IMG/VR virus record: IMGVR_UViG_3300044977_000027
Span: 1-22,948 of that record
Reading direction: 5' to 3' (one strand)
DNA from: a virus
Length of the DNA: 22,948 nucleotides
A program made the position numbers and the translations under genes. Below, one piece after another: positions 1,530 through 14,162 of the stretch. Position 1 is the stretch's first letter. The number at the start of each line of letters is the position of its first letter. Under the pieces are notes generated by a model. The model saw only the letters and a program-made list of their open reading frames with translations, did not search any database and was not told where the DNA came from.

Positions 1530-3152
1530 TCACGCGGCCCGGCGGTAGCCCGGCGACAGAGCCGGCGTGCGGCGGTAGCCACCGCGGGCATATCCCAGCG
1601 GCTTGCCAAGCTGCGCGCGCGCGTCGTCGGCGCTCGGCCCGGCGTAGAATGAACTGGGCAAGTTCGAAACCGCCGCCGCGACGTCGTCGGCTGTCGGCTG
1701 GCGGCCGCTCAACGGGGCATTTTTCGCAGCGTCGAGATCGTGCTGCCATGATGCCCAGTACGCCTTGGATTTCGGTCCTGGCGTCATGCCATAGCTTTCC
1801 GCAAGCTGACGATGCAGGGCCGGCAGTGACGCATTTGGCTGCGAAGCCGCAAGGCGCGCACCAACCATGGCGTCGTCGCTAGATGTGCTGCCGCCCTCGG
1901 CGTAGCCCTGGAGCGCACCGCCGCGCGCCATCCGACGTTCCGTGTCGGGATACATCTGGCTCTCCGTAATGTCCCGGCGCATCGCGTCGACATCTTTCTC
2001 TGCCTCTGGGTCGTGCGGATCCCTCGGGTTCCCGGCCCGATGTGCCCGCAGCGCCTGCCACCAGTCCTCGGGCTCGAGGTTCGTGCCGTAGTCGCCATAG
2101 CTCGCGGTCCTGACCAACGAGCGGCCGCCCTCGGCATAGCCCTGGAGCGCACCGCGGCGCACGTGGCCGCCCTTGGCCGCCCCGATCCCGAGCGACTGCG
2201 CGCCCAGCGCCGTCCCGACCGCCGTCGAGAACGGCGAAGCCCCGAACGCCGACGGGAACGTCTCGGTCGCCGTCTGCGACGTCGACCCGACCGGCAACCC
2301 GTGCAGGAGATTGGACACGAAGCCCAGTTGCGAATACGGGTACTGCTGCTGCTGGTTGAAGTTGTTGATCGACGCGTTGATGTTCTCCTGCGACAGCGTG
2401 TCCTGCTGCTGACCCGACGCCGCCAAGTTCGCGACGTCGAAACTCCCGAGCTGCGATTGCAAGGCGCCCATCTGGCCCTGCTGCGAACCAAGACTTCCCT
2501 CGAGCGATGCCAAGTTCCCGAGCTGTCCCGCTCCGGCCATCTGCTCCTGCTGCTGCTGCTGCGCCGCCCCGAGCGCGCCCTGGAACCCCGTCTGCAATGC
2601 CTGACTGACCGCAGGATTGAGCGCCTGCTGCTGCGCCAACAGGGCGTTGTTGTCCGCCTGCATCTGCTGCGGCGACGCCGCCTGACCCGCGCTCACGAAC
2701 TGCGACTGGATCGACGGCAGTACGTTCTGCTGGAAATTCGTGTTGCTCTGCTGCTGAAGCGCCGACACCACATCGTTCGTGTACGGGTTCAGGAAATTGT
2801 TGATCTGCGAGGCCCCGATCGGCTGCGCCGCCTGATTCGTCAGGTTGGCGGCCTGCCCGGCAAGCGCCCCGCCCTGGTTGATGAAGTTCTGACCCGACGA
2901 CAATGCCGGCTGCCAATCCCCGACGTTGCTCCCGGCCAACTGCTGCGATTGCAGAGTCTGAGAACTCGGCGTGTATACTTGCTGTCCAGGGAAAGGAGTG
3001 AAGGGCTGCTGAGCAAGATTAGTCGCAGCGTTGTCTAAATTGAACGCGCTTGTCTGGAGCCAAAGTGGAAAATTTGTTGACGTATCACTACCAGTTGGCA
3101 CCGGTACTGGACTTGAACCCTGGAAAAGCATAGAACTTATGCCTGAACTCAC
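1530..3152 (-). CDS. Gln-rich internal-virion-like phage protein
   Basis: 540 residues from GTG 3152 (GGGAG six bases upstream). The N-terminal two thirds are Gln/Asn/Ala-rich (LQTSAFNLDNAATNLAQQPF, INNFLNPYTNDVVSALQQQS, QQQALNPAVSQALQTGFQGA). The LNPYTxxVVxAL motif recurs in uncharacterised virion proteins of short-tailed phages. A five-codon CAG run encodes QQQQQ. The C-terminal third has two copies of RGALQGYAEGG (or GGALQGYAEGG) and ends LGYARGGYRRTPALSPGYRR, related to the RGGHMVRGAL stretch of the protein before the endonuclease. The first 65 or so codons lie in low-GC DNA, unlike the rest. It is likely an ejected internal virion protein. Its TGA is in frame with the next gene. Confidence 0.65.
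   Translation of the reverse strand: MSSGISSMLFQGSSPVPVPTGSDTSTNFPLWLQTSAFNLDNAATNLAQQPFTPFPGQQVYTPSSQTLQSQQLAGSNVGDWQPALSSGQNFINQGGALAGQAANLTNQAAQPIGASQINNFLNPYTNDVVSALQQQSNTNFQQNVLPSIQSQFVSAGQAASPQQMQADNNALLAQQQALNPAVSQALQTGFQGALGAAQQQQQEQMAGAGQLGNLASLEGSLGSQQGQMGALQSQLGSFDVANLAASGQQQDTLSQENINASINNFNQQQQYPYSQLGFVSNLLHGLPVGSTSQTATETFPSAFGASPFSTAVGTALGAQSLGIGAAKGGHVRRGALQGYAEGGRSLVRTASYGDYGTNLEPEDWWQALRAHRAGNPRDPHDPEAEKDVDAMRRDITESQMYPDTERRMARGGALQGYAEGGSTSSDDAMVGARLAASQPNASLPALHRQLAESYGMTPGPKSKAYWASWQHDLDAAKNAPLSGRQPTADDVAAAVSNLPSSFYAGPSADDARAQLGKPLGYARGGYRRTPALSPGYRRAA
1891..1921 (-). repeat. 31-bp direct repeat, copy 2 (GALQGYAEGG coding)
   Basis: Partner of the copy at 2125-2155, 30 of 31 bases identical. 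It encodes the second GALQGYAEGG near the C terminus of the Gln-rich protein. Confidence 0.85.
2125..2155 (-). repeat. 31-bp direct repeat, copy 1 (GALQGYAEGG coding)
   Basis: Together with 1891-1921 this forms a 31-bp direct repeat with a single mismatch (a at 2136 versus g at 1902). Both copies are in the same frame and encode GALQGYAEGG. A crossover between them would remove 234 bp (78 codons) in frame. Confidence 0.85.
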
Positions 3153-4228
3153 TTGTTTCTCCCGGGGCGAAGAGTCTTTATTACTTTCTCTCTGTGTTCT
3201 GTTGTCAGTTTGCGCCCACGAAGTTTGGCGGCTATTTTCTCTTTAGTCTCTTCTGACAACTTCTTGCCGACGCTGAAGCTGCGCAAATGGGCGGCCTGTT
3301 CAGGCGATAGAGGAATACCGCGGCGAGACGCCCGCTTAGCAAGGCCGGCGAGAAAGCGCGCCCGGAATTCTGGATCGGCATGTTGTTGGCGAGCTTTCTC
3401 GGCAAGCTGACGGCGCTTCTCAGGGTCGCTCATCTGCTTCGTTGCCCGCAGCCGCGATGCCTCCCTCTGCTCATCGGTGAATTCGGCCGGCGCGCCTCTC
3501 TTGGCACTAGCCTCGCGCATCTTTGCGCTGTACTCCGGCGTCTGCTGTGCCGCCGTGATAGCCGCTCTCTGCGCGTCTGTCCACGGGACGCCTTTCTTGC
3601 TGGCCGACGCCTTTGCCCTGGATTCCTCTGTCCATTTCCGACCCGTGTGGGATTCCCTAAGACGACGTCTACCATCCTCTGTCAGGCCAGACTTGCCGCG
3701 CCGGGCGATGCTGAGTCTTGCGCGGGTTTCTGGAGAAACGCTGCGACCAAGCATTGCGGCAGTCATCTTCGCGATATGCTCTGGAGTGCGCCGTTTCCCT
3801 CGGTTTGCTTTACCGATCTTCTCCTTAGTCTGGTCAGACAGCTTTCTACCTAGTTGCCATGCTCCCATCCGCTCTCTGGCTTCTATAGACTGCTTAACCC
3901 CGACGGGTTCTCCTCCTGTCGAAAGGTTGAAGCCGTTTGGCCTGAATGTGTTGTGGGCCGAGATCAACGCGCGCTCAACGGCACCGGCTTCGCGTCGATT
4001 AACGGCTTCGTAGAGAACCTGAAACGAGAATTCAGCGATGCCATGCTTCCTCATGGCCTGATGCAGGAACTTCATGCGTTTGCGGTCGCCGCTGAGCGCC
4101 GTTACCTTGTGCTGATCCCAGCGTTTTGTGGGGTCGCCTTTGTTAGTGATCCCGATGTAGCCACGGCCAGTCGAATCGTGCGTCACCTTGTAGACGACGA
4201 CGGGCCGGGATATGTCTTGGTCAGCCAT
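3149..4228 (-). CDS. Free-standing GIY-YIG homing endonuclease with NUMOD3 repeats
   Basis: 359 residues. The ATG at 4228 has AGGA six bases upstream; upstream codons in frame are intergenic. The GIY-YIG domain spans about residues 8-106. VVY (11-13) and YIG (24-26) stand for the GIY and YIG motifs. Arg36 (KRW) and Glu85 (VERALI) are the likely catalytic pair, and Asn101 (GFNLSTGG) closes the domain. The rest holds about nine NUMOD3-type DNA-binding units such as GRKLSDQTKEKIGKANRGK, RSVSPETRARLSIARRGK and KLSEETKEKIAAKLRGR. The gene is lower in GC than its neighbours. It interrupts no coding sequence: it sits between two virion genes, and its last codons contain the Shine-Dalgarno site of the next gene. 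It would cut an allele lacking the insertion and spread by repair. Confidence 0.88.
   Translation of the reverse strand: MADQDISRPVVVYKVTHDSTGRGYIGITNKGDPTKRWDQHKVTALSGDRKRMKFLHQAMRKHGIAEFSFQVLYEAVNRREAGAVERALISAHNTFRPNGFNLSTGGEPVGVKQSIEARERMGAWQLGRKLSDQTKEKIGKANRGKRRTPEHIAKMTAAMLGRSVSPETRARLSIARRGKSGLTEDGRRRLRESHTGRKWTEESRAKASASKKGVPWTDAQRAAITAAQQTPEYSAKMREASAKRGAPAEFTDEQREASRLRATKQMSDPEKRRQLAEKARQQHADPEFRARFLAGLAKRASRRGIPLSPEQAAHLRSFSVGKKLSEETKEKIAAKLRGRKLTTEHREKVIKTLRPGRNK
3159..3163 (-). promoter_or_regulatory. Shine-Dalgarno GGGAG for a GTG start, inside the endonuclease gene
   Basis: GGGAG lies six bases upstream of GTG 3152. It is formed by the last codons of the endonuclease gene. 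The GTG overlaps the endonuclease TGA as GTGA, so the mobile gene has kept or created translation start signals for its neighbour. Confidence 0.65.
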
Positions 4229-4261
4229 TGTCGATCCTATCCATCGGCAGTGTGTCAGAAG

Positions 4262-4287
4262 GGCCGGGCTGTTAGCGCAGCTCGGCC
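4262..4287. other. Inverted repeat in the gap before the homing endonuclease
   Basis: ggccgggctg (4262-4271) and cagctcggcc (4278-4287) flank a 6-base loop. Read on the plus strand they make a 10-bp stem with one G-U pair, followed by TTTCG. Read on the minus (gene) strand the same position is an A-C mismatch and no U-run follows. It could be a weak terminator for plus-strand transcripts, a processing site or a border of the inserted gene. Confidence 0.45.
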
Positions 4288-4301
4288 TTTCGCTGTGGGC
4301 G

Positions 4302-4330
4302 ATCATATCATGGCGGCAAAATCGCGTCAC
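4302..4330 (-). promoter_or_regulatory. Weak putative sigma70-like promoter for the homing endonuclease
   Basis: GTGACG (4325-4330) and TATGAT (4302-4307) on the minus strand are spaced by 17 bp and match the consensus at 4/6 and 5/6 positions. The site overlaps the stop codon of the upstream gene and heads the 98-bp gap before the endonuclease. Free-standing homing endonucleases often have their own weak promoter. Confidence 0.3.
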
Positions 4331-5508
4331 GCGGCGAGGCTCCCGCGGGCTTCGCGCATGTATTCGAGCGGGCCTTTCTTGCCCTGGGGAGCGATCACCT
4401 TCTTGCTGCCGGTGTCCTGATGAAGACGGCGCCGCATCTCATCGAGTACTCTGGCGCCAGCTTCATTACTGCCCCGTCCTAGTGCGGATACATCGCGGGC
4501 GGTCATGACATATTCGCCGTTACTTAATTTTGCGTCAACATCATCACTTGTACCATCGCCAGGGCCTTGGACGTAGTTCTGTCCTCCATCCGTGGCGAAG
4601 ACCGGCGGCGCCAAGGCGCCACCTCGGGCATAGAGCGCACCCCTGACCATGTGGCCACCTCTTGCCGCCGGCACCGGCGCGCCCAGGTTCTGGAGCTGGT
4701 TGCCGGCAAAGTATAGCTGCTCGGGTCCGCCGCCCTGGGTCTGGGTCGCACTACCCGGGAGCGGGTTGAGCGGGGTCCGGTTGATGAAGCCCGTGGGGTT
4801 GAGGTTGGCGTTGAAGACCGGCCCTTGCGTGGCCGCGGTCGAGCTCGGGCCCGGCGGGGCGACGGCCTTGGGCTTTGACAGGAGGCTACCGAGCCCGGCG
4901 AGGGCACCGAGGGCAAGCGAGGTCGTGCTCAGGCCTTTGCTCGCGAGCGCGCCGGCACTCGATGTCGCCGAAGCCGCCGGCGGTCCGCTGCCGCCCGCAA
5001 GCGCGTTTTCGGCTGTCGCTACCGTCGATGGCGATGCCCCGCCTTGGGTCTCGGCGGCGATATCGCCCACGACCTGATTTGGATCTGCCGGGTCGGCGCC
5101 GCTGCTGAACAGCCCCTGGAGAGTCGACATGGGGCTGCTCATCAAGTTGCTGAAAAAGCCCGGCGCAGCGCCCGGAAGCGTGCCGCTGCCGGCGCCTTCA
5201 AGGCCGCCGAATCCGCCCTGGAGGCCGCCAAGATCGGTGGCGCCGATGTCGAAGCCCGGCGCGGCCGCATCAACGCCCTGCGTTAACGGACCCAGCGTGG
5301 CATCGGCGCCGGCGGCCAGATCAGCACTAGACAGCCCACCACCGGCGATAGTCCCGGCATCGATGACGCCGCTGCCGAGCCCCGCGCCAGCGGCGGTCGC
5401 GCCGACGTCGGCCGCGCCCGCGGCCCCTGCGCCGACCGCCGCTGCCGCTCCCGCATCTGCCGCGCCCTCGCCGGCGATCGCCGCGGCCGGAATCGAAACG
5501 CAAGCCAT
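4327..5508 (-). CDS. Internal-virion-like Ala/Gly-rich phage protein
   Basis: 393 residues. The ATG at 5508 has GAGGAG (5515-5520) six bases upstream; the open frame above it is shadow. The first 130 residues are Ala/Gly-rich and hydrophobic (IAGEGAADAGAAAAVGAGAA), fitting a membrane-active ejection protein, though no clean transmembrane helix stands out. The C-terminal third is the recognisable part: RGGHMVRGALYARGGAL, then YVQGPGDGTSDDVDAKLSNG, EYVMTARDVSALGRGSNEAG and ARVLDEMRRRL. This GPGxGxSDxxxAxLSxGEYV signature is widespread in uncharacterised virion proteins of short-tailed phages. It shares RGGHxVRGAL with the Gln-rich protein beyond the endonuclease. Probably packaged and ejected with DNA, by inference. 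Confidence 0.65.
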   Translation of the reverse strand: MACVSIPAAAIAGEGAADAGAAAAVGAGAAGAADVGATAAGAGLGSGVIDAGTIAGGGLSSADLAAGADATLGPLTQGVDAAAPGFDIGATDLGGLQGGFGGLEGAGSGTLPGAAPGFFSNLMSSPMSTLQGLFSSGADPADPNQVVGDIAAETQGGASPSTVATAENALAGGSGPPAASATSSAGALASKGLSTTSLALGALAGLGSLLSKPKAVAPPGPSSTAATQGPVFNANLNPTGFINRTPLNPLPGSATQTQGGGPEQLYFAGNQLQNLGAPVPAARGGHMVRGALYARGGALAPPVFATDGGQNYVQGPGDGTSDDVDAKLSNGEYVMTARDVSALGRGSNEAGARVLDEMRRRLHQDTGSKKVIAPQGKKGPLEYMREARGSLAA

Positions 5509-5972
5509 CAGGCGCTCCTCGCTGGTATGTCCATGACGTAGACCTCTTCGATCTTCTTCGCGCCCATGGCCTCGAAGATCCGGCCGGCCTTGGGCGAGTC
5601 GCCGACGAGCCAGTGGTGCGGGAACGCGCGCTTGACGCCCACGGCCGCGAGCTCGTCGACCGCGGCCTTGAACAGCCGGTACGCGACCGTGCCGCCGCGG
5701 TTGTCGGGATCGATGAACCACGGACCCTGCCATGCCGCCAGGGTGCCGTTGTCCTCGAGATTGGGCGCGACGTAGAAGATGCAGTAGCCGACGAGGCGGT
5801 TGCCGTCTCGAGCCGTGACGACCTGGGCGACGTTGCCGTCGACTGCGGCCTTGCTGCGCGCGATGTCGGGGGCGAAGCCGGCGTCGGGGTCGAGCTCGTC
5901 GTGGTGCATACGCAAGAGCGGCAGGCAGTCGGGGTGGAACTGCGCCCAGGTCTCACGCCGATACGTGATCAC
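5508..5972 (-). CDS. GNAT-family N-acetyltransferase
   Basis: 154 residues from GTG 5972. The fold order fits GNAT. An N-terminal helix-rich part is followed by strand pairs QVVTARDGNRLVGYCIFYVA (50-69) and WFIDPDNRGGTVAYRLFKAA (85-104). The second contains the acetyl-CoA pyrophosphate loop in the form NRGGTVA instead of the usual Q/R-x2-G-x-G/A. The end, KAGRIFEAMGAKKIEEVYVM, is the usual closing helix plus strand of the family. GNAT proteins are common in phage late regions and are thought to acetylate proteins or small molecules; the target here is unknown. The TGA overlaps the next ATG (TGATG). Confidence 0.8.
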   Translation of the reverse strand: MITYRRETWAQFHPDCLPLLRMHHDELDPDAGFAPDIARSKAAVDGNVAQVVTARDGNRLVGYCIFYVAPNLEDNGTLAAWQGPWFIDPDNRGGTVAYRLFKAAVDELAAVGVKRAFPHHWLVGDSPKAGRIFEAMGAKKIEEVYVMDIPARSA

Positions 5973-6519
5973 GGGCGCGCTCCTTGAGCCAAGCGATCTT
6001 GTCCCGATTCTCCTGCATCAGCAGCAGTCGGGCCCGCATGTCGATCTGGATGTTGGTGTGGCGCATCAGATCCCACCACCACCGTGCCCACGGGACACCG
6101 GTGACGCAAAATTCCCAGAGCCGGCGCGCGGGGTTCTCGCGTGACAGGTCCTGGCAATCCATCACCAACGTGCCCGGAAGTGCCGCGATCTCGTCAAGGC
6201 AGCGCTCGATCGTCGTCAGGTCCACCCAAGCGGGATCGACACCTTGGCGCGCCAAGCTTGCTTCGATCTCGTGCCGCGGCCGGCGCAGCACGGCGAACCG
6301 GGCATCAGGGAAGACGCCGCGGACCCGGCGCCAGCCGTGCGCCATGCCGGTGTCGGCGACGCCAGTCTGCGGAGACTCCAGAGCCTTCCGGATCAGGTCG
6401 AAGTCGGCGAGCCAGGCGACGAGGTCATGACGGCACTGCCAGCCCGCGAAGGTCATCCAGCGCGCGCACCATGCCGTCCTGGAGCGCGGAGCTGCGAAAA
6501 TGATGAAGGGGGCGGTCAA
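5953..6519 (-). CDS. Sulfotransferase-like P-loop protein
   Basis: 188 residues from the TTG at 6519. The open frame runs far upstream but that part is shadow of the radical SAM gene. FAAPRSRTAW (residues 8-17) after a beta strand matches the 5'-phosphosulfate-binding loop of sulfotransferases (PRSGTTW type). FAVLRRPRHEIEASL (75-89) matches the region that contacts the 3'-phosphate of PAPS (R-x-P-R-x6-S). The protein is short for a full sulfotransferase (usually 250 or more residues), and the C-terminal part (WEFCVTGVPWARWWWDLMRH) is unusually Trp-rich. It may therefore be a reduced phage version or a related nucleotide-binding protein. The donor and acceptor cannot be told. The last 20 bases overlap the acetyltransferase gene. 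Confidence 0.6.
   Translation of the reverse strand: MTAPFIIFAAPRSRTAWCARWMTFAGWQCRHDLVAWLADFDLIRKALESPQTGVADTGMAHGWRRVRGVFPDARFAVLRRPRHEIEASLARQGVDPAWVDLTTIERCLDEIAALPGTLVMDCQDLSRENPARRLWEFCVTGVPWARWWWDLMRHTNIQIDMRARLLLMQENRDKIAWLKERARDHVSA
5980..5985 (-). promoter_or_regulatory. Strong Shine-Dalgarno (AAGGAG) for a GTG start
   Basis: AAGGAG sits seven bases before GTG 5972. It lies inside the end of the sulfotransferase-like gene and fixes the acetyltransferase start within the 20-base gene overlap. Confidence 0.7.
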
Positions 6520-7622
6520 GACAAGAGCTCCAGCGCCGCGGCCTCGCGGCCGGGATCCATCAAGGACACGAGTGGGTTGTCCGGCACCAGCCGCTGGCCC
6601 TGCCACCAGCCCTTGCGCATGCCCTCTCGCATTATGATTTGGATCGCGCCGGTGCCGATCGTACCGGGGACGAAACTCGCCCAGGGCCCGCGGCCATTCA
6701 TCCAGCGCATGTCGATCGTCTCGACCGTCGGCCAGCGGATGAGCGCGATCTTGATGTCGCCGCAGCGGTGGACGATGCGATAGGGATTGTTGCCCTCGCC
6801 ATCCGGGATTTGGCAACCGGCGCCGAACAGCGCCCTGAAGGCCGCGGCGGCCTGCGACATCCACATCGGGCCGCTGTCTTGGAACTGTCGCCCGATGTGC
6901 GCGGCGATGCGGATGCAGAAATGCCGAGGTCGCACGCCAACGCCCGCCAGGGCGACGATCTGCTGCGCCGCGAGCTTCAATGACCGATCGAAGTCCACGA
7001 TGGTGAAATTGACGTGCGTGAGCCGCCAGCCGAGGTCCACGGCGTTCATCAGACCCCTGAGTGCCTTGGCGTGCGCGCGCTCGCCGTTGTAATCGACGTC
7101 GTGGACCGAGACCGAGGCGTGGCGCAGGCCTGCGGCGTGGAGCCGCTTGGCATAGCCAGGATCGGCCAGCCTGATCCCGTTGGTCGTGATCGTGACGCCT
7201 TTGCCGCCGGCGATGATGGCCTGGATTATCTCGGGCAGGTCGGGCCGCATCGTCGGCTCGGCGCCCATGAGGCAGACCATCGGGGTCGGGCTCCCGAGCG
7301 CCTCCGCGACCACGTGCTCGAGCGAGCGGTCGACGGTGGCGTTATTCGGGTCCTGATAGCAGTTTGGGCACTTGAGCTGGCAGTGATTCGTGATGTCCAG
7401 CATCGTCACGTTGTTGTAGGCGGCGATGTCCGGCACCGTACCTGTGGGTTGCTGGCAATCGCGCCAGAAGGCCGCCGACGGGTCCAGCATGAACTCGAAG
7501 TCGCCATGGGCGGGGCAGGACTTCGTCATCCACACCGCGCCGCCGCGCTCGAGGACGGACGCAAGCAGGTCCCTGTAGCAAGCGGGACAAAGTGATCGGG
7601 TAGGGGATGGGGTCTGGGTCAC
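6516..7622 (-). CDS. Radical SAM enzyme with N-terminal CPxC/CPxHG module
   Basis: 368 residues from GTG 7622. No ATG lies in frame nearby, and the N-terminal cysteine module would be lost by a later start. Cys81, Cys85 and Cys88 (NHCQLKCPNCYQ) form the CxxxCxxC site for the 4Fe-4S cluster. MGAEPT (119-124) replaces the usual GGEP SAM-binding loop and TITTNG (144-149) is a further core strand. The extra N-terminal pattern CPAC (12-15) ... SCPAHG (35-40) followed by a D-x3-FW segment resembles the start of COG1964/MJ0619-type radical SAM enzymes, which act as methylases or in C-C coupling. There is no seven-cysteine SPASM domain; later cysteines are at 236, 270 and 287. The substrate is unknown. 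It leads a coupled trio with a sulfotransferase-like protein and an acetyltransferase. Confidence 0.8.
   Translation of the reverse strand: MTQTPSPTRSLCPACYRDLLASVLERGGAVWMTKSCPAHGDFEFMLDPSAAFWRDCQQPTGTVPDIAAYNNVTMLDITNHCQLKCPNCYQDPNNATVDRSLEHVVAEALGSPTPMVCLMGAEPTMRPDLPEIIQAIIAGGKGVTITTNGIRLADPGYAKRLHAAGLRHASVSVHDVDYNGERAHAKALRGLMNAVDLGWRLTHVNFTIVDFDRSLKLAAQQIVALAGVGVRPRHFCIRIAAHIGRQFQDSGPMWMSQAAAAFRALFGAGCQIPDGEGNNPYRIVHRCGDIKIALIRWPTVETIDMRWMNGRGPWASFVPGTIGTGAIQIIMREGMRKGWWQGQRLVPDNPLVSLMDPGREAAALELLS
6528..6531 (-). promoter_or_regulatory. Shine-Dalgarno GGAG that selects a TTG start
   Basis: GGAG lies eight bases upstream of TTG 6519. That TTG overlaps the radical SAM stop codon as TTGA, so translation is coupled. 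There is no ATG or GTG between it and the P-loop-like motif at residues 8-17. Confidence 0.6.
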
Positions 7623-7676: not shown

Positions 7677-7705
7677 ACTATATCGGAAGTTGCCCGAGCC
7701 TTCAA
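7677..7705 (-). promoter_or_regulatory. Putative sigma70-like promoter upstream of the radical SAM gene
   Basis: On the minus strand TTGAAG (7700-7705) and TATAGT (7677-7682) are separated by exactly 17 bp; they match the consensus at 4/6 and 5/6 positions. The predicted start of transcription is near 7670, giving a leader of about 48 nt. The site sits at the head of the 79-bp gap, one of only two gaps longer than 20 bp in the window. That supports it, but no experiment does. Confidence 0.5.
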
Positions 7706-8034
7706 CCCGTCACCCACAGAATGCCGTTGACCGCGAAAGCCCAATGCCGCCAGTCCTTGAAGAACTGCGACCGCGGCAAGCCTAGACCGGCGTTATTCGG
7801 CAGGCTGACGAAGAGGTCGGCCCAGCTTCGCCATTGCGATTCCGGCACCTCCTTCATGGCGCCGGACGGCCCGAGCTGTAGATGCGACTGAAGCATCTGG
7901 GCTGTCCAGCGGTCCCATGTCGTGAACCTGGGATCAACGATGAAGATGCTGGGCTTGACCGTTGTCGACGACGGCCCTGGCCCCGGCGCCCATGAAGCCG
8001 TGTTCCAGAAAAAAAACCAAAGTCCGCCGGACAT
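7702..8034 (-). CDS. Small phage protein of unknown function
   Basis: 110 residues. The ATG at 8034 overlaps the upstream TGA (TGATG), and GGAG lies about ten bases before it. A frame open further upstream is shadow of the previous gene. The N terminus has a short aromatic hydrophobic stretch (SGGLWFFFWNTASW), too brief for a standard signal peptide. The body reads FIVDPRFTTWDRWTAQMLQS, then PESQWRSWADLF and DWRHWAFAVNGI: a run of Trp-containing helices. Short proteins of this pattern are frequent among phage late genes. Its stop codon overlaps the -35 box of the putative promoter that serves the following enzyme genes. Confidence 0.65.
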   Translation of the reverse strand: MSGGLWFFFWNTASWAPGPGPSSTTVKPSIFIVDPRFTTWDRWTAQMLQSHLQLGPSGAMKEVPESQWRSWADLFVSLPNNAGLGLPRSQFFKDWRHWAFAVNGILWVTG

Positions 8035-9269: not shown

Positions 9270-9812
9270 TTAAGACCCAGCATACCCCTGGGAATTGCAC
9301 ACTTGTGTCGAGCTCGCACTCCCTGGCGTGAACTTGAGCGCTGTAGCGGCCGCCACGACCAGCGGCGTCGGGAACGAGATTGCGAAGCCCCCGCCCGCCG
9401 GATTCGGCATGCTCCAGCCCGACGTATCGTTCAGCGTGACGAGCGAGGTAGTCGTGCCCGTGTTTCCGCACTGAATCGCCGTCACGTAGATCTTAACCCC
9501 AGCGGCCTGGGCGGCGATGATCTGGGTCTGCGTCGTGCTCGTCTGCGAGCCCGACCCGGAGACGAAGTTCTCCTTGTTGGCGTAGGGCATCGTGATGGTC
9601 TTGCCCACGAGATCGCAGACATACCAGACGCTTGTAAAGGGCACGCCCTCCGGCGGTATCTCGGCGTTTATGGCCTGGCAGCCTGCGGGATAGGAACTAG
9701 ACCCCGTGGCGATGTCTTGCGCTTTCAAGCCTGTCCAATGGGTCGCCACGACGGCGAGGGCCAGGAACAGCGCGAGGCCGAGAAACGCGAAAATGACGTG
9801 GCGCCTCTTCAT
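9270..9812 (-). CDS. Small exported or membrane-anchored phage protein
   Basis: 180 residues. The ATG at 9812 overlaps the previous TGA (ATGA); the frame is open 18 codons further up but that is the tail of the previous gene. The N terminus MKRRHVIFAFLGLALFLALA has two positive residues and a long hydrophobic core, fitting a signal anchor or a signal peptide cut after VVA or LKA. The rest has four cysteines (YPAGCQAI, WYVCDL, IQCGNTG, TQVCNSQ) and Ser/Thr-rich beta-prone sequence with TSLVTLNDTSGW. Paired cysteines agree with an oxidising compartment. I do not recognise the family. It ends in TAA, the only TAA stop in the window, 17 bases before the next start. Confidence 0.7.
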   Translation of the reverse strand: MKRRHVIFAFLGLALFLALAVVATHWTGLKAQDIATGSSSYPAGCQAINAEIPPEGVPFTSVWYVCDLVGKTITMPYANKENFVSGSGSQTSTTQTQIIAAQAAGVKIYVTAIQCGNTGTTTSLVTLNDTSGWSMPNPAGGGFAISFPTPLVVAAATALKFTPGSASSTQVCNSQGYAGS

Positions 9813-12562
9813 TGGATCAACCCCGAGATAAATCCGGTGATCGTGCCGCTGGTGAAGGTGAAGCACGTCGTCGCGCTCGTGAGCATGGCCGTGATCCCGG
9901 TCGAATATGCCGCCGGGACCTGACCGTAATTTATCGACGCGCTGCCGCTCGCGGGCAGGGGCGCGCAGGAGAGCGGCGTGATGGTCGAGCCCGTGGTCGG
10001 CGCCGTGGTCGCGTTGATGACGACCAGGAAGCCGGCCGTCGTCGTCTGGTTCGTCGCGTTGACCGAATAGAGGTTTCCGGCCGCGGCTTTGAGCACCTTA
10101 GAAGCCGCTGCGGTCGCGGTAACGACAGGCGTGATCGCCGGATAGTTCGGCGAGAGCACGACTACCTGCGCTGGATCGGTTGCGGCCGGAGCTGTCGAGG
10201 CCGCTTTGACCGCTCCGGTGTTAGTCCCATCCGTTATCTTGACGGGCCAGCCATTCGCGACCGTGTTGGCGGAGCCCTGCGTTACAGACCCGATCGCGGC
10301 ACTTCCCGCCGGCAACGGCGAGTTCGGTGAAATCGCCACCACAACGCTCGGATCCGTTGCAGCCGCGGCGGTCGACGCCGCTTTGACAGCCCCGACGTTG
10401 GTTCCGTCCGTGATCTTGGCCGTCCAGGCGCCGGATGCCGCCGCGGCCGTGCCTTGCGCCACAGACTGATTCGCCGTCAAGGCTCCGATGACGGCCGACC
10501 CAGCAGGCAATGGAGAATTCGGCGACAGCGCCACGACCTGCGAAGGATCGGCAGCAACGGCTGCGGTGCTCGCGGCCTTGACGGCGCCGATGCTCGTCCC
10601 GTCTGTGATCTTCACCGGCCAGCCGTTGGTGGCCGTGTTCGCCGTGCCCTGATTGGCCGTGGCGGTGCCGCCGCTGACCTCGACGTTGGTGACTGCGGCC
10701 GGCTGCGAAGAGGCCCGGATCTGCCCGCCGACCGAGCCCGAGGTAAAGGCCGAAACCCTCAGACGTACCTGAGACATGCCGGCGGTCGGCTCGAGCGAGA
10801 CCGTGACCGGGCCCGTGATCGAGGCAAATGTCAGGGCCGGTCCAGCGCCGCCGCTCGGGGTCACGACGGTCAGGAGGGTCCAGTTCGTGCCGTCGACCGA
10901 GCCTTCGGCGACGACCGTGGCGACGAAAGTCCCGGTGACATCGGCACCGACGCTCTGCGTACCCGAGACCGTGATTGCCGCTGCCGCGTTCACGGCGGCT
11001 AGGCCCGAGAAGTTGACAACCGTGTCCGGCGCACTCGCGGGCAACGTGGTTCCGCTGGCGACGCCCTGGACCGTGATGACGTTGGCCGAGGGGGTGCCGG
11101 CCGTGCCCGGGGCCGAGCCCGCGATCGTGGTCGTGTCCTGCCCAACGGCAACGCGCGCCGATCCCGTCCCGACCGCGCCCGCGCCCGTCAGCGTCGTGAC
11201 GCCGTTGACCTGGGCGAGGCTTACCGACTGGTTTGCAGTCAGGGCCCCGATGGTGGCGCTGCCAGCCCCTAGCGTTACCGTGCCGACCGCCGCCGAGCCG
11301 GCGCCAAGGGCGACAGTCCCGAGCGCATTCGTGCCCGCTGGCAGCGGGGAATTCGGTGAAAGCGCGACTACGGCCGATGGGTCGGTGGCCGCCGCCGCAG
11401 TACTGGCGGCCTTGACCGCCGTGGTGTTGGTGCCGTTGGTGAGCTCCACCGGCCAACTATTCGCAACGGTGTTCGCGGTTCCCTGGTTCGAGGTGAGGGT
11501 GCCGGACACGCCCCAGGGCGAGCCGCTCTGCGCGACGCTCGGCGTGTTGGTGATGAAGGCGTTGACGCCCGGGACCGTCACGGCGCCAGGCGACGTGCCA
11601 TAGGCCGAAGGCGCGCCGAGCGTCGAGCCGGCCAACTGTGTAGAGTTCTGCGCCCATGGCGGGGTGCCCTGCTGGACCGTCCAAGTCCCGCTCTGCGTCG
11701 CCGCCACAGTGCCCGTGACCGTGACGGTGCCGGGGTCTACCTCGAGCCTGCCCGTGGCGGCATCGACCTGGAGGCGGCGCCAAACCGTATTGGTGGCGTC
11801 CCAGCCCTCGAGCAGGCTCTCGACCAGAGCGGCCGAGGTCGGGTTCGCGACAGCATCGCCTGGCGTCGACGCGCCCGTGATCGCGACGACGTCGGCGCTC
11901 GTAAGCGCGCGGATCTGGTACTTCGAGCCGGTCACTCCGCCGGCCAGGGTCGCGAGGTTGCCGCCGGTCTCTTGCGAGGCGTTCGCCGGCAGCGGCAGCG
12001 ATGCGGCGCTGATGGCTTGCGTCGCCGGGAAGTTGCTGACCGAGACCGAGCCAACAGCGGCGCTGCCGGCACCCAGGACCACGACTCCCGGGTCAACCTC
12101 GAGGCGCCCGGTCCCGGTGTCGACCTGGATACGGCGCCACACTGAGTTCGCCGGATCCCACCCACCCAGCAGCGCCCAGTCGATCAGGCCGGTGGTCGGG
12201 TTCGCGAAGCTGTCGCCCGGCGTCGCCGATCCGACCACCGCTGTCGATCCCGTGATGCCGATATTCCACGACCCGCTCTGGGTCACGGCGATCGATGAGT
12301 TCTGGACCTGGACCGGCAGGCTTCCGGTCGACCCGATCGGCACGCAGTTGTCGGTCGAGAAATCGCAGAATGTGAAGCGCTGGCGATAGACGCTACTGCC
12401 AAGTGCTGTAGTAACGACGGAGTGGTCTATTAGCTTCCCACTTGAGTCCGGCGGCACTTCTACTGCACCATCTGTGCCTCCGCCGGCCATTACTTGATTT
12501 GATAACAGAATAAGTAGCAGAACTACTATAAGTCTGGAGAGCCTAAGATGTTCTCCTCGCAT
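9809..12562 (-). CDS. Large exported repeat-rich fiber-like protein
   Basis: 917 residues. The ATG at 12562 lies inside the end of the nozzle-like gene (20-base overlap) and has GGAGG six bases upstream, which fixes the start. A signal peptide follows (RLIVVLLLILLSNQVMA, predicted cut before GGG). Two copies of a GWDxxNxVWRRxQVDxxTGRLEVDPG unit come first, then PSAYGTSPGAVTVPGVNAF. The second half has four copies of a block containing AVKAASTAAAATDPS and VVALSPNSPLPAG. The C-terminal domain has two cysteines (LSCAPLPASGSASI ... TSATTCFTFTSGTITGFISG). The motifs are common in phage structural proteins of unknown fold. The first 60 codons lie in a low-GC patch unlike the rest, so the export signal may have been acquired separately. 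Confidence 0.7.
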   Translation of the reverse strand: MRGEHLRLSRLIVVLLLILLSNQVMAGGGTDGAVEVPPDSSGKLIDHSVVTTALGSSVYRQRFTFCDFSTDNCVPIGSTGSLPVQVQNSSIAVTQSGSWNIGITGSTAVVGSATPGDSFANPTTGLIDWALLGGWDPANSVWRRIQVDTGTGRLEVDPGVVVLGAGSAAVGSVSVSNFPATQAISAASLPLPANASQETGGNLATLAGGVTGSKYQIRALTSADVVAITGASTPGDAVANPTSAALVESLLEGWDATNTVWRRLQVDAATGRLEVDPGTVTVTGTVAATQSGTWTVQQGTPPWAQNSTQLAGSTLGAPSAYGTSPGAVTVPGVNAFITNTPSVAQSGSPWGVSGTLTSNQGTANTVANSWPVELTNGTNTTAVKAASTAAAATDPSAVVALSPNSPLPAGTNALGTVALGAGSAAVGTVTLGAGSATIGALTANQSVSLAQVNGVTTLTGAGAVGTGSARVAVGQDTTTIAGSAPGTAGTPSANVITVQGVASGTTLPASAPDTVVNFSGLAAVNAAAAITVSGTQSVGADVTGTFVATVVAEGSVDGTNWTLLTVVTPSGGAGPALTFASITGPVTVSLEPTAGMSQVRLRVSAFTSGSVGGQIRASSQPAAVTNVEVSGGTATANQGTANTATNGWPVKITDGTSIGAVKAASTAAVAADPSQVVALSPNSPLPAGSAVIGALTANQSVAQGTAAAASGAWTAKITDGTNVGAVKAASTAAAATDPSVVVAISPNSPLPAGSAAIGSVTQGSANTVANGWPVKITDGTNTGAVKAASTAPAATDPAQVVVLSPNYPAITPVVTATAAASKVLKAAAGNLYSVNATNQTTTAGFLVVINATTAPTTGSTITPLSCAPLPASGSASINYGQVPAAYSTGITAMLTSATTCFTFTSGTITGFISGLIQ
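10138..11461 (-). repeat. Four copies of an AVKAAST / SPNSPLPAG protein repeat
   Basis: Copies lie near 11317-11461, 10484-10628, 10291-10435 and 10138-10258. Each encodes W-P/T-(V/A)-K/E-I/L-T-(D/N)-G-T, then AVKAASTAxAAxDPSxVV and xxSPNSPLPAG. The three lower-coordinate copies are clustered with roughly 193 and 150-190 bp spacing; the first stands apart. Edges are approximate. Confidence 0.75.
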
Positions 12563-14162
12563 CGGCGACCTCCGCGTGCAGGAGGTGGCGACCGGACTCG
12601 TAATATCCGCCCAGCACGTTTGATTCGATGTGCAGCCGCATCAGCCGCGCCGTGCTCTCGGGACTCTTGAGACCGGTCAACTGTTCCTGCGGAACCTGGG
12701 GCACGAACCGGATCGGAAAGCTGGGCCCCTGGACTTCGCCCTGGCGCGCGTGCGAGGAATTCGCCGACGTCAGCATGTAGGCGAACATGTCGCCGAATTG
12801 CTTGAAGTCGGGCTCGAGCTGCTGCGCCGACATGCCCTGGTCGTTCGGCGGCGTGTTCTTGATGCCGCCGATGAACGGTGTCTCGAAATATGACCGGATC
12901 GGCACTGGTGCTTGGCCCGGGGTCACCTGGTCGTAGCCGTTCTCGTGCAGCCAAAGCGTGTACTTGCCGTTAGGGCCGGGCACCGAGCCGCCCATGAGCG
13001 GGTAGCGGATGCCCTGGGCGAGGTAGCCGCAGCTGCGGCCGCCGTTCGGCAGCGCGGTGTCGTACCAGACGTTCTCGCGGACATTGAAGATCGCGGCGTG
13101 CGACGGCTCCGTGGCGCCGAAGAGCGGTGCGCAGAACCAGATCTCGCCGAAGCGCGGCACCTTGAACGCGAAGGACTTGACCGCGTAATTCCAGTTCATG
13201 TTGTCGAAAAACCAGTCCTGATTCTGTGTGTTCAAGACCTCGACCGTGGTGCCGTTGAAGACCATGAAGCGGTCGATGCCGGCCCAGAAGTAGAGGCCGT
13301 CGTATTCGATCACGGTGTCCGAGGACAGGATCGAGGTCGAGGGCGAGATCGTGTTGAAGGCGAAGACCGGCGTCCCGCCGATGAACGTGGCGCCGATGAG
13401 CTCGGAGATTGACCAGAAGAGCGCCGCCGGGCTCTGCGCCCCGCCGCCCCGCAGTGGATAGCCATAGACGATCTTTTGCGCCGAGATCCTGGCCGTGCCG
13501 GCCCCGGTGGTGCCCTGCGAGACCCCGAGGGTGTTGACGATGTTCGGCGCCGACCAGTTGACCTGACCGCCGGCACCGAAGGCGAAGACGTAGGGCTGGG
13601 CCGCCACGATACCGCCGGTGACCGAGGGCGGGATGTAGATGCCGCCACCGATGTTGGCGGGCTGCTGGACCTGCTGCAGCGGTGTCTGGGCATCGATCTG
13701 CCCGACCAGCGGCAGGGCCGGGATAGCGCCGGCGAGAAACTGCGTATCGGTCGCCGGATGGGCGACCAGTTGCACGACGGTGCTCGTGGTGTCGAAGAGC
13801 GCATCCAGGGTCCAGCCAATCGCCGGGCCGCCGGGGAAGCCCCCGCCCAGCGGCGTTCGGTCAGCAGAGCTGATGAAATTGCCGTTCGGGTCCAGGATCA
13901 CCTGCTGGATGCCGGCCGTGGTGCCGACATGGACGATGATCAGATCGCCGGAATAGTAGATATGGATCTTGCGCGGGACGCCGTTCAGGCCCTGGAACGC
14001 GGCCACATAGCCCAGGATCTTGCGCGGGCGGGAATTCCGGAAGCGGCACCAAAGCATGTGCAAATAGCGATTGGCGTCGAAGCGCGTGCCATCTCGTTGC
14101 ACTCCGGGGCTGAAGTCGAGAGAGATCGGGACATCGGCGATCGGCTGGACCTGGGGCGGCAT
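12543..14162 (-). CDS. Tail nozzle / stabilisation-type protein (T7 gp12 / P22 gp10-like role)
   Basis: 539 residues. The ATG abuts the TAG of the collar fiber gene. The N terminus (DVPISLDFSPGVQRDGTRFD ... WCRFRNSRPRKILGY) is typical of podovirus nozzle proteins, whose chain starts by defining a no-wrap ring and then builds a beta-propeller. Propeller-like strands recur: IHIYYSGDLIIVHVGT, VIEYDGLYFWAGIDRFMVFN, WNYAVKSFAFKVPRFGEIWF, HAAIFNVRENVWYDTALP, KYTLWLHENGYDQV, RSYFETPFIGG. The C-terminal region (ARLMRLHIESNVLGGYYESG) matches the same type. It probably forms the distal tube through which DNA leaves. Its last 20 bases overlap the next gene. Confidence 0.7.
   Translation of the reverse strand: MPPQVQPIADVPISLDFSPGVQRDGTRFDANRYLHMLWCRFRNSRPRKILGYVAAFQGLNGVPRKIHIYYSGDLIIVHVGTTAGIQQVILDPNGNFISSADRTPLGGGFPGGPAIGWTLDALFDTTSTVVQLVAHPATDTQFLAGAIPALPLVGQIDAQTPLQQVQQPANIGGGIYIPPSVTGGIVAAQPYVFAFGAGGQVNWSAPNIVNTLGVSQGTTGAGTARISAQKIVYGYPLRGGGAQSPAALFWSISELIGATFIGGTPVFAFNTISPSTSILSSDTVIEYDGLYFWAGIDRFMVFNGTTVEVLNTQNQDWFFDNMNWNYAVKSFAFKVPRFGEIWFCAPLFGATEPSHAAIFNVRENVWYDTALPNGGRSCGYLAQGIRYPLMGGSVPGPNGKYTLWLHENGYDQVTPGQAPVPIRSYFETPFIGGIKNTPPNDQGMSAQQLEPDFKQFGDMFAYMLTSANSSHARQGEVQGPSFPIRFVPQVPQEQLTGLKSPESTARLMRLHIESNVLGGYYESGRHLLHAEVADARRTS

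Follow-up and report, generated by a model that had tools for sequence, protein, structure and literature searches.

The DNA analyzed here, referred to as the window, is a 22,948-bp fragment that makes up the whole of IMG/VR virus record IMGVR_UViG_3300044977_000027. Its minus strand carries, among genes for virion proteins, three consecutive genes predicted to encode a radical S-adenosylmethionine (SAM) protein, a sulfotransferase-like protein and a protein of the GNAT acetyltransferase family:

6516–7622, minus strand: radical SAM gene (368 aa, GTG start), GDGT-MAS/HMPTM-like, viral subfamily
5953–6519, minus strand: sulfotransferase-like gene (188 aa, TTG start)
5508–5972, minus strand: GNAT-family gene (154 aa, GTG start, AAGGAG upstream)

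The radical SAM and sulfotransferase frames overlap by 4 bases (TTGA, 6516–6519) and the sulfotransferase and GNAT frames by 20 bases (5953–5972), exactly as described in an initial annotation made from the sequence alone, and Shine-Dalgarno-like sites precede the second (GGAG) and third (AAGGAG) genes. In strand and in GC content at third codon positions (GC3, 0.82–0.91) the trio matches the adjoining virion genes. Homologues with common conserved motifs were found for all three open reading frames (ORFs), so none of them is a chance ORF. The annotation's family calls were likewise sustained: radical SAM (Pfam), 3′-phosphoadenosine-5′-phosphosulfate (PAPS) sulfotransferase fold (motifs and structural model) and GNAT (Pfam).

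A Conserved Sulfotransferase-GNAT Pair

IMG/VR was scanned with short peptide patterns and at most 80 loci were kept, so the counts given here are lower bounds. Scans of IMG/VR and of genome contigs with single window proteins returned nothing, relatives surfacing through profiles only. The sulfotransferase profile recovered at least 80 loci, and in the clade that includes the window's protein every member has a GNAT gene of the same family directly after it or fused to it in one open frame. Reciprocally, a scan from the GNAT side found a sulfotransferase directly upstream at 15/15 loci. After removal of near-duplicates, at least 17 distinct sulfotransferase-GNAT lineages are present, including the window; seven are fused, and the pairs show either overlaps of 1–35 bases or fusion. 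In the sulfotransferase tree, linkage to GNAT is confined to one clade (0/500 shuffles were equally clustered), within which fusion was gained or lost at least three times. Where flanking genes are recognizable, the upstream flank is a phrog_578 head-closure (gp10-like) gene and the downstream flank encodes a phrog_598 DNA-ejection or phrog_418 internal virion protein; the position between them is called the enzyme slot below. No copy of the module was present in 50,697 cultured-phage records.

The sulfotransferase and the GNAT-like protein form one functional unit, as their conserved adjacency and recurrent fusion show. The initial annotation had proposed that all three enzymes act together, an idea that would have failed had each gene occurred alone in many phages. 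For the sulfotransferase and GNAT the adjacency and the seven fused lineages speak strongly in its favor. For the radical SAM protein it is backed only by the gene overlap and by an analogy of position within the slot, while relatives of that protein elsewhere occur without this sulfotransferase and GNAT, and here the expected linkage broke down in part.

The Sulfotransferase-Like Protein

The sulfotransferase-like protein matches phrog_10855 (1.9e-13) and phrog_38824 (8.1e-7). It has no Pfam match at gathering score, and its relatives match Sulfotransfer_3 below the cut-off. Two PAPS-binding motifs are conserved:

6469–6489, minus strand: 5′-phosphosulfate-binding loop PRSRTAW (P11, R12, S13 and W17 invariant in 57/57 sequences)
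6256–6282, minus strand: 3′-phosphate-binding motif R80-X7-S88 (R and S each in 56/57 sequences)

H31 is also kept in 56/57 sequences. The R-X7-S spacing is that of the 3′-phosphate site of known sulfotransferases. For an AlphaFold (AF2) model with a predicted local distance difference test score (pLDDT) of 93, the first twelve PDB matches are tyrosylprotein sulfotransferases (TPST), with template modeling (TM) scores of 0.51–0.61, which suffice for the fold and not for the substrate. The TPST structures (PDB 5wrj, 3ap2, 8w5z) and the phage protein have in common the P-loop sulfotransferase fold and the 5′- and 3′-PAPS motifs, whereas identity is 13–16%, length differs (~270–330 aa vs 188 aa) and the likeness is one of overall fold only. 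Taking both PAPS motifs together with the modeled fold, gene 2 is predicted to belong to the PAPS-dependent sulfotransferase family. A kinase reading was rejected: where a kinase would have a GxxxxGK[ST] P-loop the protein has PRSxTxW, and sulfotransferases lead its fold matches.

Homologous sulfotransferase-like proteins that share PRSxTxW and R-X7-S are the PHROG 10855 “hydrolase” of Abidjanvirus and its relatives in Casjensviridae phages. They are annotated as hydrolase, NTPase or hypothetical protein, and differ from the window's protein in having no GNAT partner and in lying outside the virion slot. In three relatives an adenosine-5′-phosphosulfate (APS)-kinase/nucleotidyltransferase-like gene is close to the sulfotransferase gene; a fused APS-kinase-like and cytidylyltransferase-like protein near the sulfotransferase was noted in L010 (7003–7740), L012 and L235 (Casjensviridae and a relative), and this protein may supply PAPS.

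The GNAT-Like Protein

The GNAT-like protein scores just above the cut-off of PF00583 (Acetyltransf_1; 22.2 vs 20.7 bits) and matches phrog_1249 (3.6e-11). Alignment of 14 relatives places its acetyl-CoA loop as follows:

5682–5699, minus strand: acetyl-CoA loop position, RGGTVA, which departs from Q/RxxGxG/A

The loop is degenerate in several relatives as well, which makes acetylation by the window's GNAT uncertain. It is clearly intact in the slot GNATs of L013 and L190. MW202796, L013 and L016 carry GNAT relatives in the same slot without a sulfotransferase.

The order of genes in the slot parallels T7 genes 12-13-14, the GNAT gene being flanked by nozzle and internal core genes. Similarity in sequence to T7 gp13 (PF11090) was looked for and was undetectable. 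In Cobaviruses, a GNAT adjoining internal virion proteins was compared earlier with T7 gp13 (PMC6775973). In both Cobaviruses / SIO1 (pc40) and T7 (gp13), as here, a gene that is small or of GNAT type separates the tail-tube genes from those for internal virion proteins, but no sulfotransferase partner is described for the Cobavirus / SIO1 GNAT (PMC6775973).

The Radical SAM Protein and Its Viral Family

The window's radical SAM protein exceeds the cut-offs of PF23545 (HMPTM zinc-ribbon; 55.4 bits) and PF04055 (56.4 bits), and the curated models and solved structure nearest to it are TrsS and Tes/GDGT-MAS. The best PDB folds for its AF2 model (pLDDT 86) are GDGT-MAS structures 7tol and 7tom (E 1e-17 and 1.5e-16; TM 0.68–0.70). 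Two cysteine motifs characterize the protein:

7506–7589, minus strand: N-terminal metal motif C12-X2-C15-X20-C36-X2-H39 (exact spacing in 48/49 aligned viral family members)
7359–7382, minus strand: radical SAM cluster motif C81-X3-C85-X2-C88 (Cys in 49/49 family members)

CX3CX2C, the PF04055 score and the fold matches (a partial TIM barrel) place it in the radical SAM superfamily. GDGT-MAS / Tes (MJ0619; PDB 7tol) has the same CX3CX2C core and a rubredoxin motif, C9X2C12X20C33X2H36, whose CX2CX20CX2H spacing is identical in the viral protein (PMC9433317). In contrast to GDGT-MAS, which has two auxiliary [Fe4S4] cluster domains, the window's protein and its viral family have no conserved Cys between residues 40 and 80 or after 88, and the family therefore lacks both auxiliary clusters. 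The viral proteins are also ~350 aa long, carry GAEPT (43/49) where GDGT-MAS has GGEPT, and fall far below the NCBIfam equivalog cut-off of GDGT-MAS/Tes (84.8 vs 450 bits for the window's protein).

A profile scan of IMG/VR recovered at least 77 further viral loci with this family; 79 loci together contain 126 of its ORFs, many as tandem pairs. There were no matches among INPHARED phages, and the same profile found only seven weak relatives in 84,980 prokaryote species; the family is essentially viral. In a tree the window's protein joins 48 viral relatives with a Shimodaira–Hasegawa-like approximate likelihood ratio test (SH-aLRT) support of 92, and its very long branch (3.0) leaves its exact place in the family unsure. 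Other viral members usually lie within large oxygenase-rich enzyme cassettes: TauD-type oxygenases accompany them in 49/78 loci, Asp_Arg_Hydrox proteins in 47/78 and a second radical SAM type in 43/78, besides several unannotated families. Large aquatic phage contigs (L093, L094, L107–L182) have dense cassettes of this kind, with tandem radical SAM genes, TauD and Asp-hydroxylase-type oxygenases, SGNH-esterase-like and tryptophan-halogenase-like genes and unannotated families; many of their genes have no Pfam or PHROG match. A ~183-aa family in 70/78 radical SAM loci looked GNAT-like by eye, yet had no Pfam or profile match, and that call was withdrawn. A reading as a maturase of ribosomally synthesized and post-translationally modified peptides was also rejected. 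No convincing precursor-like small ORF adjoins the radical SAM gene except that of a protein termed IDPRF, which occurs without radical SAM (59/65 loci), and there is neither a SPASM match nor an auxiliary Cys.

Gene Neighborhood and the Variable Enzyme Slot

The trio was originally placed between exported proteins and internal virion proteins, and the neighboring genes agree with this:

12543–14162, minus strand: P22 gp10-like stabilization / head-closure protein, the upstream anchor (phrog_3287, 2.8e-20)
12562–8034, minus strand: several putatively exported proteins, some repeat-bearing, between the gp10-like and IDPRF genes
7702–7944, minus strand: small conserved IDPRF protein before the enzyme slot (start codon unsure)
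4327–5517, minus strand: Gly/Ala-rich virion protein directly downstream of GNAT, with a tape-measure-like C-terminal motif (phrog_6090, 4.1e-7)
1530–3152, minus strand: DNA-ejection-type internal virion protein (phrog_4287, 3.8e-9)

The order of transcription is gp10-like, exported proteins, IDPRF, radical SAM, sulfotransferase, GNAT, Gly/Ala-rich, GIY-YIG and ejection-type genes. By its gp10-like protein, 36% identical to that of Caulobacter phage GB2A, the window's nearest named phages are Caulobacter phages GB2A, RW, RLK and KcrB. A 917-aa protein (9809–12562) has an apparent signal peptide, TDGT/AVKAAST repeat blocks and almost no PHROG similarity. The IDPRF protein is the counterpart of a ~79-aa family present in 59/65 related gp10-type loci, where it sits directly after the gp10-like gene. 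The GIY-YIG/NUMOD3 homing endonuclease gene (3149–4330) lies between two virion genes; similar genes, judged by eye from sequence, occupy the same place in L013 (19528–20463) and L017 (14259–15218).

What fills the slot varies among close relatives: GNAT, hydroxylase plus cupin, or GNAT plus a glycosyltransferase-like gene. The last of these is found in L013, where the glycosyltransferase-like gene beside GNAT was recognized by eye only, while the gp10-related loci L014 and L015 have a 2-oxoglutarate (2OG) oxygenase (hydroxylase) and a cupin-like gene. Also in this slot after the gp10-like gene are an annotated 3-oxoacyl-ACP synthase in L003 (20671–21615) and a small acyl-carrier-like protein, seen by eye, in L070 (4868–5158). 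Asp/Asn-hydroxylase-like (Asp_Arg_Hydrox-like) 2OG oxygenase genes adjoin related sulfotransferases in 20/80 loci (18/57 representatives), confirmed by Pfam in L206, L214, L218, L220 and L256. This pairing belongs to other clades of the same sulfotransferase family, with at least three changes forced on the tree, and the oxygenases are homologous to those beside viral radical SAM genes. At L279 an oxygenase gene immediately precedes a sulfotransferase-GNAT fusion (leave-one-out E 1.3e-5), the place that the radical SAM gene has in the window. The shared position is observed, and it suggests that the two enzymes are equivalent.

Proposed Function and Alternative Explanations

The trio may plausibly decorate a component of the virion or of the host surface, as originally suggested. 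Our preferred reading, held tentatively and at somewhat less than an even chance, is that the trio is a late module that functionalizes C-H bonds of a virion protein, sulfates it and perhaps acetylates it. The three genes would constitute a modification module, expressed late to judge from gene position, and would occupy an enzyme slot of variable content that has the gp10-like tail gene on one side and the ejection-protein genes on the other. A C-H-activating enzyme could be added before the sulfotransferase-GNAT unit, a 2OG-Fe(II) hydroxylase-like protein in one relative and the GDGT-MAS-like radical SAM protein in the window. The latter would alter an unreactive carbon of the substrate and probably feed the sulfotransferase-GNAT unit; the sulfotransferase would transfer sulfate from PAPS to a hydroxyl (of tyrosine or newly made), and the GNAT domain would acetylate an amine or merely hold the substrate. 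The likeliest substrate would be a neighboring virion protein, either a tail-tip/fiber or an ejection protein, given the gene position and that the nearest solved folds are protein sulfotransferases. The catalytic motifs of the radical SAM and sulfotransferase proteins are kept, as this reading expects. Several points weigh against it. Substrate and activity remain predicted, the TPST match speaking to fold and not to substrate. The window's GNAT and several relatives have a degenerate acetyl-CoA loop, and the Abidjanvirus and Casjensviridae sulfotransferase relatives are located away from virion genes. Among the records scanned, radical SAM, sulfotransferase and GNAT occur together only in the window: the radical SAM family was found in 0/17 sulfotransferase-GNAT records and the sulfotransferase in 0/20 gp10-related and 0/9 radical SAM records, most of these being fragments, while positive controls matched. 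Literature searches for the three-enzyme combination found nothing.

A role in morphogenesis or as an ejected protein stays the main rival, given the gene order shared with T7 genes 12-13-14. The GNAT-like protein would then take the place of T7 gp13 and serve in particle structure or morphogenesis, the attached sulfotransferase would be ejected or assembly-associated and act in the newly infected host, and the radical SAM gene would be an unrelated insertion. The degenerate acetyl-CoA loop and the comparison already drawn for the Cobavirus GNAT (PMC6775973) fit this account, which we nevertheless find doubtful: the protein has no detectable sequence similarity to gp13, the slot GNATs of L013 and L190 retain an intact loop, and the sulfotransferase motifs are almost invariant, indicating that catalysis matters. 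The enzymes might instead modify a host envelope molecule (lipopolysaccharide, capsule or lipid) late in infection, for example blocking re-adsorption of progeny or superinfecting phages. Membrane lipids are the substrate of the radical SAM protein's closest relative (PMC9433317), that family's cassettes in large phages are rich in oxygenases, and the related L013 has its glycosyltransferase-like gene, called by eye, in the same slot. However, the lipid enzyme's auxiliary clusters are missing from the radical SAM protein and no membrane-anchoring or sugar-nucleotide genes were recognized in the window's slot, and we judge this explanation unlikely.

That the slot simply gathers unlinked accessory genes (morons), with the radical SAM gene present by chance, would agree with its variable content in close relatives and with the absence of radical SAM linkage to sulfotransferase-GNAT elsewhere. 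It is improbable in view of the overlapping frames, fusions and single-clade linkage of sulfotransferase and GNAT, and of the hydroxylase in the radical SAM gene's place at L279. Mesyanzhinovviridae and Casjensviridae, in which related sulfotransferases lie in mid-genome clusters, include DNA-hypermodifying phages. Hypermodification of nucleic acid or a small molecule by the window's enzymes is nonetheless very improbable, since the module lies among virion genes and not replication genes, and no thymidine or cytidine modification genes were recognized in the window.

Implications

Fusion of the sulfotransferase and GNAT provides firm genomic grounds for regarding both proteins as one system, a view under which tail or ejection proteins should show altered masses (+80, +42 or another shift). 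The viral radical SAM proteins are an unexplored group of radical enzymes and amount to compact relatives of tetraether lipid synthase that have no auxiliary clusters. A more general proposal, to which we give a rather low likelihood, is that phages covalently modify their own virion proteins in several steps, a C-H-activating enzyme (2OG oxygenase or virus-specific radical SAM) feeding a sulfotransferase-acetyltransferase unit. If this is true, it would be, to our knowledge, the first protein-sulfation system in phages, and there would be phage particles with sulfated and possibly C-modified residues.

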